Shown here in pieces: positions 3,865-8,590 of a stretch of DNA of 32,172 nt. This stretch comes from a virus, in the IMG/VR virus record IMGVR_UViG_3300028283_000023, positions 1 to 32,172 of that record; one strand, written 5' to 3'. Both the position numbers and the translations under genes were made by a program. Each line of letters opens with the position of its first letter. Positions within the stretch are counted from its first letter, which is position 1. The notes below the pieces were generated by a model that saw nothing but the letters and a program-made list of their open reading frames with translations, made no database searches and was not told where the DNA came from.

Positions 3865-4077
3865 TCACTTCTCCTCAATGCCTAACTCTTTTAATACCTC
3901 TTTCATATAAATCTCATGCCATCCATATCTTTTACTAATCTTCTCAATCGCTTCTCGGACATGAACTTTATCGAGACAAGTTTGACTAATAACATTCTCA
4001 TCATATAAATTTACAGTTACTTCACTCTTTAATGTATTATTATTTTTCAAACTTGGAAAGTTATTTTCAAACGTCAT
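3865..4077 (-). CDS. Hypothetical protein, 70 aa, preceded by a structured RNA leader
   Basis: A 70-residue protein with a disordered polar N-terminus (NNFPSLKNNN) and a helical C-terminus (VREAIEKISKRYGW). A strong AAGGGGTTGA site lies upstream of ATG 4077. The 107-nt gap before it, filled by the GC-rich structured element at 4096-4185, is exceptional in an operon where genes normally overlap. Its translation may therefore be controlled by that element. Confidence 0.65.
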   Translation of the reverse strand: MTFENNFPSLKNNNTLKSEVTVNLYDENVISQTCLDKVHVREAIEKISKRYGWHEIYMKEVLKELGIEEK

Positions 4078-4095
4078 TCATTTCAACCCCTTGAT

Positions 4096-4185
4096 GGAAC
4101 CTGACGGAATTGCACCGCCCGTGCGTAAAGCTCTAACCACACTTAAGTGGCTCCCTACTACAACACATGGTCACTAGACAGTTCC
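4096..4185 (-). ncRNA. GC-rich tRNA-like structured RNA or cis-regulatory leader
   Basis: A 90-nt segment, visibly richer in G and C than its surroundings, fills the gap between two coding regions. Ends GGAACTG and AGGTTCC pair over 6 bp like an acceptor stem. Immediately inside the 3' strand is a 5-bp stem with a 7-nt loop (GGCGG, TGCAATT, CCGTC), matching a tRNA T-arm in size and position. A central hairpin (AGCCA / TGGTT) carries CTTAAGTG, which contains a Leu(UAA)-like CUUAAGU. However, the loop is 8 nt and no D-arm with GG is evident. The 3' end lies 4 nt before the ribosome binding site of the next gene. Either a degenerate tRNA or a structured leader. Confidence 0.5.
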
Positions 4186-4307
4186 TAAATAAACACTTGA
4201 TTATAAATTAAATAACCTACAATAAAAACAAGGAATATTAATAAAATAATATAACAGATAAATAAGATTGACATCCCGACTTCAATAATATCTTCAAACT
4301 CAATCAT
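4185..4307 (-). CDS. 40-residue single-pass membrane protein
   Basis: Encodes an acidic 10-residue head (MIEFEDIIEV) and then one long hydrophobic helix covering most of the rest. A GGTGGTAA site precedes the ATG by about 4 nt, and the gene follows the winged-helix gene by 3 bp. Small viral membrane protein; function unknown. Confidence 0.55.
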   Translation of the reverse strand: MIEFEDIIEVGMSILFICYIILLIFLVFIVGYLIYNQVFI

Positions 4308-6083: not shown

Positions 6084-6307
6084 TATTTCACTCTTTGAAG
6101 TACTCTTCTTTTAAAATAAATAAACGGGACCATATCTCCTGACATTATTTGTTTTGCAAATGTACCAAGCTTAGTATGTTCATTTTTAGTTTTAGCATGG
6201 ATAACAATTTGTGCTTTTAAGATTGCATCAGCACCTTTTGGAGCTGATTCAATAGTAAAGTTTGAACAATATACTTGAAAGCCATTTTCCTCTTCTTTTT
6301 TTTTCAT
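6083..6307 (-). CDS. Hypothetical protein, 74 aa
   Basis: A small alpha/beta protein: acidic-basic start, two strands (FQVYCSNFTIES and KAQIVIHAKT), then a basic end. A GAGTGATGA site precedes the ATG and overlaps the stop of the SWIM gene. Function unknown. Confidence 0.6.
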   Translation of the reverse strand: MKKKEEENGFQVYCSNFTIESAPKGADAILKAQIVIHAKTKNEHTKLGTFAKQIMSGDMVPFIYFKRRVLQRVK

Positions 6308-6314
6308 AGTTTCA

Positions 6315-6566
6315 TCACTCTTTTTCTATCATTGGTTTTGCGGGATTTCCAAATAAAAAAATTTCACAAGCGAGAACGTGACAACACGGTGTGTTATAGC
6401 AATACGCCAAACATTCGCATGACCATTCTCGCTTGTGCTTTTTAAAAAATACTCTAAATTTCTTATCTACCAACATAATCGTGTGAGCATCTGAATCCGA
6501 TTCTCTTTTTACTTTTCCGTTCATTACTAAACTTCTGGCATAAAAATAAGAATCAGCTGAGCTCAT
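6315..6566 (-). CDS. SWIM zinc-finger protein
   Basis: An 83-residue protein carrying the SWIM signature CxCx(n)CxH (CECLAYCYNTPCCHVLAC), preceded by the usual beta strands (KFRVFFKKHKREW). SWIM fingers mediate DNA or protein binding and are frequent in archaea as short stand-alone proteins. The first 30 residues form a helical lead-in. TAATG coupling to the upstream gene. The partner is unknown; the operon context suggests DNA metabolism or regulation. Confidence 0.8.
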   Translation of the reverse strand: MSSADSYFYARSLVMNGKVKRESDSDAHTIMLVDKKFRVFFKKHKREWSCECLAYCYNTPCCHVLACEIFLFGNPAKPMIEKE

Positions 6567-6865
6567 TATCGTTTATGTTTTACTCCTGCTTTTTTCTCAG
6601 CTTTCTCTTTTTCCTTTTCTATCTTAACAGCTTCTTCAGCTTTCTTGAACTCTTCAAGCAACTTCTGGTCTTCCTTAATTGTTAATGCAACAACTTGGCC
6701 AGTAGTAAATCCTGAAAGAGGTTCAATACTTTTTAGGACCATAACGTTTCCGAATCTGTCTTCACATTTCATGACAAACTCTTCTTTAGTTATTTTGTCG
6801 CCTTGCTTGTTCACTTTAGTTTCTGTACTCTTCTTGATGCTTTTTATCTTCATTCCGTTTGCCAT
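6566..6865 (-). CDS. Conserved-looking early protein, 99 aa
   Basis: The start at 6865 (MANGMKIKSIKK) is chosen because GAGGGGA lies just upstream, unlike the in-frame codon at 6877. A beta-rich N-terminal part (EEFVMKCEDRFGNVMVLKSI) is followed by a long Glu/Lys helix and a basic tail. Together with the next gene it may form a small barrel plus helix nucleic-acid-handling pair; this is inference. Confidence 0.6.
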   Translation of the reverse strand: MANGMKIKSIKKSTETKVNKQGDKITKEEFVMKCEDRFGNVMVLKSIEPLSGFTTGQVVALTIKEDQKLLEEFKKAEEAVKIEKEKEKAEKKAGVKHKR

Positions 6866-6873
6866 GTTTCCCC

Positions 6874-7251
6874 TCACTGGACTATTTCACTATCTTCAAT
6901 CGGTTCGTTATTTATGATGGTTTTCCCATCGTTACCAACCGGATAAGCAAGAAGTTTCTTTTTCACTTCGCCTTTGCTATTTTTTGTTTTTTCAACATGA
7001 AACTCAACCCTCTTTTCAACCCAGTTACTAGAATCATATCCCCATACATCGGCAAGATTCTTATTAGTTTCCTGGTTGATAAAAAGGTTCTTTAAAATTT
7101 TATTAAAGCTTACTGTAATCTCAAAAGCCTTTCCGTTCTTAGTATCTATATATTGTCCTTCATTTACAATAATACCAAACTTATTTGTTGATGCTTCAAC
7201 GTGTTCTGGTTTTAGATATTTCCCTTCTGCATTTGCTTGTGTGTTTACCAT
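6874..7251 (-). CDS. Putative OB-fold-like DNA-handling protein, 125 aa
   Basis: ATG 7251 (MVNTQANAEGKYLKPEHV) is preferred because CGGAG sits 9 nt upstream; earlier in-frame codons lack a good site. The middle reads as strands, followed by NLADVWGYDSSNWVEKRVEF, a pattern I associate with early phage proteins near single-strand-binding genes. The end is acidic (EPIEDSEIVQ), as in many single-stranded DNA-binding proteins. Binding is inferred, not shown. Confidence 0.5.
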   Translation of the reverse strand: MVNTQANAEGKYLKPEHVEASTNKFGIIVNEGQYIDTKNGKAFEITVSFNKILKNLFINQETNKNLADVWGYDSSNWVEKRVEFHVEKTKNSKGEVKKKLLAYPVGNDGKTIINNEPIEDSEIVQ

Positions 7252-7292
7252 TGTTTTGTTCTCCGTCATCGCCTGTGCTTTGTAGCGTTGGC

Positions 7293-7616
7293 TTATTGAC
7301 AATTAGTTTTGTATTTCTCTTTTTCTTCTTCGTGCTTTTGTAAATATTCAAATTTATCTTTCACTTTTGTTGATTTTAAACAAATTGAATCGTGAGCTAA
7401 TCCAACAAATAATTCAACAGAGTTTGGCGTTAAAGTATTTCCTAGAGCAAGAAATAAGGTATTAATGCCTTGGCTTTGTTCTGCAGGAAAATCTTCATAT
7501 TTATCCATTACTTTTTTTAGATTTATTAAAAATGGATGTATTGTTTCAAGTAGCTCATTTGACATTTCTTGAACAACTTTCTTATTTAATTCTGAACTGC
7601 TCATTCCAATTACCAT
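7293..7616 (-). CDS. Hypothetical helical protein, 107 aa
   Basis: All-helical by pattern, with several amphipathic helices and a charged C-terminus (LQKHEEEKEKYKTNCQ). A GAGG site lies about 8 nt upstream of ATG 7616. No motif is recognised. Confidence 0.65.
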   Translation of the reverse strand: MVIGMSSSELNKKVVQEMSNELLETIHPFLINLKKVMDKYEDFPAEQSQGINTLFLALGNTLTPNSVELFVGLAHDSICLKSTKVKDKFEYLQKHEEEKEKYKTNCQ

Positions 7617-8039: not shown

Positions 8040-8218
8040 TATTTCACCATTTTTCGTATATGCGAGTAAGCATATTTAAGCTTTGTTACTTCCGCAAGTA
8101 TCATTTCTCTATCAAGAGAATTCTCAGCAAGAACTGTCAAGTTATGAATAGATAGATATAAAGCATTTACTGACTCATGGTCTTTTTTATTCGTCCATTC
8201 TTTCATAGTAGTTGCCAT
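8039..8218 (-). CDS. Hypothetical helical protein, 59 aa
   Basis: An ORF starting MATTMKEWTNKKDHESV and ending in a basic stretch. Both ends form TAATG overlaps with flanking genes, which is strong support for expression despite the short length. Mostly alpha-helical; no family is recognised. Confidence 0.6.
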   Translation of the reverse strand: MATTMKEWTNKKDHESVNALYLSIHNLTVLAENSLDREMILAEVTKLKYAYSHIRKMVK

Positions 8219-8541
8219 TAATTCACTCTCGCAATTGAGACGTTCACGCCTTTATTCTGTGCGTCTGTTCCTGTTATGTCTCTAATAGTATAAGAGTATT
8301 CAAGACCTCTATCCATGGCTTCTGCAAAATCTACTGCGTGCATTTTAGCTAAATACCCGAGATGTTTATCTACACCGTTAATTGTCATCATGAACTTTAC
8401 TGCGTTAGAATCAAATTTATTATCAGGCTCACGTTCAAGAAATCCAGTCATCCCAACCTTTAAATCTGGAATGTTTCTTTGTCTTCCTTCGAATGAAATG
8501 CCTAAAATTTTTGTGTACATTTCTTGTTCTTTTTGTTCCAT
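8218..8541 (-). CDS. Stand-alone HIRAN-domain protein
   Basis: A 107-residue protein made almost entirely of a HIRAN domain: GISFEGRQ, then LKVGMTGFLEREPDNKFDSNAVKF split over strands, and HLGYLAK followed by the terminal helix and strands. HIRAN domains bind single-stranded DNA ends and stalled forks and are usually fused to helicases such as HLTF. Here it stands alone. Start ATG 8541 is chosen over GTG 8550 because GAGGTG then has a normal spacing. A TATA box lies about 54 bp upstream, so this gene probably heads its own transcript. Confidence 0.8.
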   Translation of the reverse strand: MEQKEQEMYTKILGISFEGRQRNIPDLKVGMTGFLEREPDNKFDSNAVKFMMTINGVDKHLGYLAKMHAVDFAEAMDRGLEYSYTIRDITGTDAQNKGVNVSIARVN

Positions 8542-8590
8542 CGTGAGCACCTCGCCCTTTTTTACGATTTATTTTATTAATATATTAACA

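Follow-up and report, generated by a model that had tools for sequence, protein, structure and literature searches.

A GC-rich intergenic element of a tailed phage contig that probably derives from a class II tRNA

A short GC-rich gap between two genes of a viral contig, which was analysed over its full length of 32,172 nt (the window), was found to contain an element that probably represents a tRNA-derived RNA. It is most similar to class II tRNA-Leu(UAA) and has the alternative T-loop UGCAAUU of some viral tRNAs. We favour this reading because an acceptor/T-arm minihelix is present in tRNA register, the T-arm is a genuine viral one, and the length and variable arm are those of class II, and also because CUUAA occurs in the anticodon-like loop and the element is positioned between co-directional genes. 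Ordinary decoding has probably been lost, because the element has no D-arm, no 7-nt anticodon loop, no pair 7-66, and no encoded CCA.

The terminase, portal, and head genes of the source contig, a 32-kb viral record, showed that it belongs to a tailed phage. Its TerL has relatives in IMG/VR that reach 51% identity and another, at 39%, in one uncultured Bacteroidetes bin. The phage genes are nearly all on the minus strand, and most of them abut or overlap. The preliminary description of this DNA had pointed to a 107-nt GC-rich gap in this tight operon, and the gap is real: positions 4078-4184 have 50% GC, while every other non-coding gap that reaches 15 nt has 12-35%, making it the only GC-rich one. 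The 92-nt core of the element has 51% GC as compared to 33.8% for the contig; only 0.07% of all 92-nt segments are equally GC-rich, and two further sites that approach this value lie in coding sequence. The element is on the operon strand (minus, 4185-4092), and the ribosome-binding site of the downstream gene begins three bases past A73, just outside the fold (Table 1). No relatives of the proteins of the neighbouring genes were found, and the TerL relatives (up to 51% identity) were without the early region. Few early proteins have a clear family; one in the early operon (8218-8550) is a HIRAN-domain protein (Pfam E 1.7e-9). In addition, a 144-bp part of a DNA cytosine methyltransferase gene (1534-2547) is 76% identical at the DNA level to Bacillus phage SPR, yet the TerL resembles those of phages of Bacteroidota.

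Table 1. Features of the gap and its surroundings (positions in the window) and members of the related viral RNA family
Feature	Position	Strand	Basis or remark
Upstream membrane-like ORF, 40 aa	4185..4307	-	stop codon TAG shares its G with the element (G1)
Downstream ORF, 70 aa, family unknown	3865..4077	-	ORF and protein searches
Ribosome-binding site AAGGGG of the downstream gene	4087..4092	-	sequence
Whole tRNA-like element as modelled (R1): A, acceptor, D region, anticodon-like arm, variable arm, T-arm, acceptor, A-TCA	4092..4186	-	GC 51%, fold, geometry, model searches
Acceptor 5' strand GGAACTG; G1 is the final base of the upstream stop TAG	4179..4185	-	6/7 pairs with 4102-4096
D-arm region, 26 nt, without standard D-arm	4153..4178	-	3-bp GTC/GAC mini-hairpin
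Anticodon-like hairpin AGCCA/TGGTT, loop CTTAAGTG (8 nt)	4135..4152	-	sequence; 6-bp version in minimum-energy fold
Long variable region, 15 nt, class II size	4120..4134	-	sequence; tRNA-Leu(UAA) of L115 has 14 nt
T-arm GGCGG-TGCAATT-CCGTC, 17 nt	4103..4119	-	identical to T-arms of called viral tRNAs
Acceptor 3' strand AGGTTCC, flush with T-arm	4096..4102	-	fold
A73, then TCA where CCA is expected	4092..4095	-	sequence
Flanking direct repeat copy 1, AACCCCTTGAT (plus-strand letters)	4085..4095	.	9/11 identical to copy 2
Flanking direct repeat copy 2, AAACACTTGAT (plus-strand letters)	4191..4201	.	spacing 106
Members of the viral tRNA-like family (R3)			L136, L137, L139, L140, L143, L144, L146, L147, L156, L162, L165, L170, L174, L180, L182, L186, L191-L193, L195, L198, L200, L201, L203, L206, L211, L219-L222, L226, L228, L234, L240, L246-L248

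Folded without constraints, the minus strand gave a minimum-energy structure consisting of a 6-bp acceptor, an abutting T-arm with a 5-bp stem and a 7-nt loop, and a long central arm. The pairable acceptor-like end and the T-arm-like hairpin of the preliminary description were thus both present in their expected places, the only defect of the 7-bp acceptor being the mismatch G7-A66 and the T-stem having all five pairs. The central hairpin with a Leu(UAA)-type loop was also recovered, as the CUUAAGUG hairpin, with UAA in frame with C32 and U33. As had been claimed, a clear D-arm was absent and the anticodon-like loop had 8 nt; the latter can alternatively be drawn as a 6-nt loop on a 6-bp stem, and neither version is the standard 7-nt loop on a 5-bp stem. 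The D-stem and a D-loop matching the T-loop were missing, with the 3-bp mini-hairpin and the motif TAGTGA being all that was seen; TAGTGA and GTAGTA in the D region are similar to D-loop motifs accompanying UGCAA T-loops. Comparison with shuffled sequences, a check that had been proposed, gave a divided result: the minus strand has a tRNA-like fold, but its stability is marginal, with z -1.6 and p 0.065 over 4095-4186 and z -1.1 when longer stretches are taken. The plus-strand RNA showed no excess stability over shuffles (z about 0). Fold energy by itself is unconvincing.

Standard tRNA searches did not recognise the element. ARAGORN and the Rfam tRNA model (RF00005) reported no tRNA there at gathering and lenient thresholds, even at E 10, and the covariance-model search against Rfam that had been suggested as a test was accordingly negative. 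Lowering the ARAGORN thresholds yielded several mutually inconsistent tRNAs, which were not used, and Rfam matches to U4 and plastid models (12-13 bits) were regarded as chance. When a class II tRNA model was trained on five genuine tRNAs, the element scored 7.0 bits (E 6.7) and ranked third in the window, with two coding sites above it, whereas with the same model class I tRNAs outside the training set scored 34-52 bits and real tRNAs overall 34-89 bits. These noise-level scores, together with a p value of only 0.065 for the fold, are what would be expected if the gap were a GC-rich structured intergenic leader or a scrap of foreign DNA with a coincidental tRNA look. The standard tests and the loose geometry given below, taken alone, would have meant such a chance resemblance.

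A peptide-coding region, the competing explanation named in the preliminary description, is extremely improbable. A 27-codon ORF on the plus strand (4097-4180) and a 19-codon GTG ORF on the minus strand (4142-4083) are both open, the latter with GGGAG upstream, but both are trivially short, and the plus-strand ORF is without a ribosome-binding site and opposes the operon. None of the six frames had the codon usage of phage genes, the best scoring -15.7 bits as compared to +5.6 (sd 5.1) for real phage genes.

The balance was tipped from chance toward a tRNA by the results on the T-arm, on the geometry, and with a model of the element alone. In IMG/VR, the exact 17-nt T-arm occurred in 17 contigs, and in 7 of them it was the T-arm of an ARAGORN-called tRNA (six tRNA-Met and one tRNA-Thr; L115, L116, L117, L118, L122, L129, and L130). 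Two further contigs carry the exact arm in a tRNA-like RNA, namely L124 and L131, the latter being a member of the viral tRNA-like family described below. In controls with a stem pair changed but kept complementary, tRNA T-arms made up 9/91 and 1/18 of the matches, while two unpaired stem combinations gave none (0/12). Judging from these comparisons, TGCAATT is a genuine viral T-loop, because the exact arm is found in called tRNAs and the paired controls recover tRNA T-arms where the unpaired ones do not. The tRNA-like RNA of L124 (704-810, plus strand) is of Met(CAU) type and 107 nt long, and its anticodon loop is interrupted by a hairpin resembling a tRNA intron.

The same T-loop was accompanied by a change in the D-loop. 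At the fetched loci, 49 of 307 called tRNAs had a TGCAA-type T-loop, a frequency that is not representative as the loci were partly chosen for the T-arm; the contrast inside the set is informative. A D-loop GG was present in 4 of the 49 TGCAA-type tRNAs as compared to 227 of the 258 others, and the former tend toward AGUAG, ACAG, or AGCAG in its place. This loss of GG is as expected if the contact between D-loop and T-loop were rewired into an alternative tRNA elbow. UGCAA-type tRNAs can be seen, for example, at L115 c6269-6343 and L116 c5371-5445 and in the tRNA arrays of L157 and L164. A viral contig also carries a permuted tmRNA (RF04321; L176 1363-1708, minus strand), and the 3' ends with a UGCAAUU T-loop in L159, L160, L188, and L252 are near-identical to that of this tmRNA.

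The geometry of the element was compared with dinucleotide shuffles of its sequence (n = 30,000) using a genuine T-loop rule (T[TG]CRANY), the geometry criteria having been chosen after the element had been seen. An acceptor with a flush T-arm and genuine T-loop arose in 3 of the 30,000 shuffles, and the full geometry including the anticodon-like hairpin in one. Among contigs that had been fetched for their TerL only (795 kb), a single non-tRNA match to the geometry was found, and it does not fold in this way. With a looser T-loop rule, similar geometry is met about once per 30 kb, which fits a coincidental resemblance. The rarity of the full geometry, the exact viral tRNA T-arm, and the coincidence of the element with both gene boundaries and the only GC-rich gap make chance an unlikely explanation.

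A covariance model built from the window element alone, with no tRNA included (R1), was searched against 761 kb. The 60 matches consisted of 8 tRNAs and 44 other sites with the shared T-arm and 8 sites without it. The eight lacking CGGTGCAATTCCG were five called tRNAs and three others, tRNAs being 0.6% of the strands searched; this recovery of tRNAs is in part a consequence of the geometry, and it and the geometry test are not independent. The best match without the shared T-arm was a tRNA-Leu(UAA) in L115, a single and marginal hit (21.7 bits, E 0.008) whose isotype fits three features of the element, namely the loop CUUAA, A73, and a variable region of 15 nt. By eye, two of the three other matches (L116 884-959 and L119 2372-2466, both minus strand) resemble tRNAs with unusual T-arms that ARAGORN does not call. 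DNA searches for homologues covered phages, plasmids, IMG/VR, and 395 genomes from the phylum to which a TerL-relative MAG belongs, and gave only chance-level short matches; no homologue was found via the neighbouring proteins or the element's own model. Three prophage contigs (L120 c7260, L125 c4111, and L128 6070) share GGGCGGTGCAATTCCGTCGGTTTCC, close to the 3' end of the element, for which a 7-bp partner may exist 88 nt upstream. They are at most possible relatives: 25 of 28 nt are common at the 3' end, yet they fold differently.

The tRNA-Leu(UAA) of L115 (3007-2921) shares with the element the acceptor/T-arm register, the 5-bp anticodon stem, CUUAA, A73, and a variable arm of similar size (14 nt versus 15 nt). 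Unlike this tRNA, the element has an 8-nt loop, a 26-nt D region without a D-arm, G-A at 7-66, a TCA end, and the UGCAAUU T-loop, and only 21.7 bits connect the two. The viral tRNA-Met and tRNA-Thr with UGCAAUU have a 17-nt T-arm identical to that of the element; unlike the element, they are class I, with a D-arm and a short variable loop. The earlier proposal of a decayed tRNA is therefore retained in part: a Leu(UAA)-type origin is the best supported by the T-arm, the geometry, and the R1 matches, but UGCAAUU is a genuine viral variant and not a decayed TTC loop. A still working, unusual tRNA, such as a tRNA-Leu with an 8-nt loop that supplements or replaces the host tRNA, would agree with the 91-nt length, the class II variable arm, A73, the start of the loop with CUUAA, and the Leu(UAA) identity of the best true-tRNA match of R1 without the shared T-arm. 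Phage tRNAs with altered anticodon loops have been proposed to resist anticodon nucleases (PMC10264068), and a tRNA with an 8-nt loop is known from yeast mitochondria (PMC7609411). The missing D-arm, the 7-66 mismatch, TCA instead of CCA, and the noise-level class II score nevertheless make a working tRNA quite unlikely.

The T-loop also occurs in a separate group of viral RNAs. The control pattern GSCGGTGCAATTCCGSC gave at least 120 matches, many of which were neither tRNA nor tmRNA. For GCCGGTGCAATTCCGGC, 41 of 86 sites had, 55-180 nt upstream, a perfect 7-nt partner for the 7 nt directly after the T-arm, as compared to 0-3 sites in five shifted controls, and 35 of the 41 partnered sites had GACAGnGA 13-18 nt past the 5' end. 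About 40 viral contigs carry this covarying tRNA-like family with T-loop UGCAA and D-loop ACAGUGA (Table 1). Its layout comprises a covarying 7-bp acceptor, a 5-bp D-stem with the loop GACAGUGA, a variable domain of 20-140 nt, and the T-arm GCCGG-UGCAAUU-CCGGC, and TTATG often precedes it. In 20 aligned members, 6 of the 7 pairs of the acceptor, which had been a selection criterion, showed both-side changes; the D-stem, which had not been one, was 97% paired with both-side changes in 4 of 5 pairs. The family model (R3) found 1-4 copies per record in all 30 viral records checked, many of which are 34-40 kb. Rfam 15 gave no match at the family sites in the members scanned, ARAGORN called none of them, a BLAST search with one member had no match among annotated phages, and no description was found in the open-access literature searched; the family is apparently undescribed. 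In L146, several copies lie on both strands within about 1.4 kb (6220-7572), and this phage also encodes the RNA ligase RtcB. An association of RtcB with the family was rejected, as it was seen in 1 of 30 records.

The preliminary description had offered a new viral RNA as its second reading, which is conceivable: there is a distinct family of tRNA-like viral RNAs that has this T-loop, but the element fails the model of that family. Family members (L136, L147, L200, L234, and others) have an acceptor and a flush T-arm with UGCAAUU in the same architecture, they are likewise GC-rich intergenic RNAs of tailed phages, and one of them, L131, has the T-arm of the element; moreover, TAGTGA directly follows the acceptor of the element in the manner of the D-loop CAGTGA. 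The members differ in their conserved D-loop (GACAGUGA in most) and 5-bp D-stem, both missing from the element. The match of the element to R3 was confined to T-arm positions 100-112 and reached 13.7 bits, with an E value of 0.13 when the contig was searched and 8e-4 when the search was restricted to the element's own 200 nt, for which reason full membership was rejected, and no TerL relative carries a member. That the element is a variant of this family is very unlikely. A broader idea, which we regard as doubtful though conceivable, is that the element may be an outlier of widespread, undescribed viral RNAs that mimic tRNAs; these would combine a minihelix and a rewired elbow (UGCAA T-loop with a YAG-type D-loop, not GG) with a decoding half replaced by variable sequence, and would act, after processing, as decoys or adaptors toward host factors that bind tRNA. 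tmRNA and permuted tmRNA (RF04321, L176) share the UGCAAUU T-arm and acceptor with the element as well. No Rfam or ARAGORN match to tmRNA was obtained in the window, and no tag frame or pseudoknots were recognised in the element, unlike tmRNA.

Returning to a tRNA-derived RNA as the preferred reading, the flanks of the element give a suggestive hint of insertion. They contain an 11-nt imperfect direct repeat (Table 1); flank matches this good occurred in 0.2-6% of controls (p 0.002-0.06), the figure varying with the control used and the length of the flanks, and are statistically weak. When the flanks are joined at ATCAAG, the upstream ORF continues in frame and overlaps the downstream start, like other gene pairs of the operon. 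A small GC-rich cassette may thus have entered between two formerly overlapping genes, as the repeats and the read-through join suggest. A MITE is doubtful, since no tidy inverted repeats were seen at the ends and no second copy was found.

The acceptor/T-arm minihelix is the part of a tRNA that is recognised by RNase P and 3' tRNA-processing nucleases. If the element is transcribed together with the operon, host RNase P and a 3' tRNA nuclease could cut at the minihelix and release an RNA of about 91 nt, and the downstream mRNA would then begin at its ribosome-binding site (tRNA punctuation). The released RNA may serve as a decoy, e.g. against a tRNA-targeting defence, or the element may be a functionless relic. 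Its reuse as a leader that controls translation, proposed in the preliminary description, is speculative; the ribosome-binding site is outside the fold, though close to it.

Overall, origin from a tRNA is likely, and a working tRNA is unlikely. These results indicate that phage tRNA-derived RNAs can escape ARAGORN and Rfam, partly because both expect a TTC T-loop and a GG D-loop. Relaxing this assumption revealed that many viral tRNAs have an alternative elbow and brought to light a covarying viral tRNA-like family without an Rfam entry. If they are real RNAs, they would be natural probes of the tRNA features that are read by host RNase P, tRNA nucleases, and tRNA-targeting defences.
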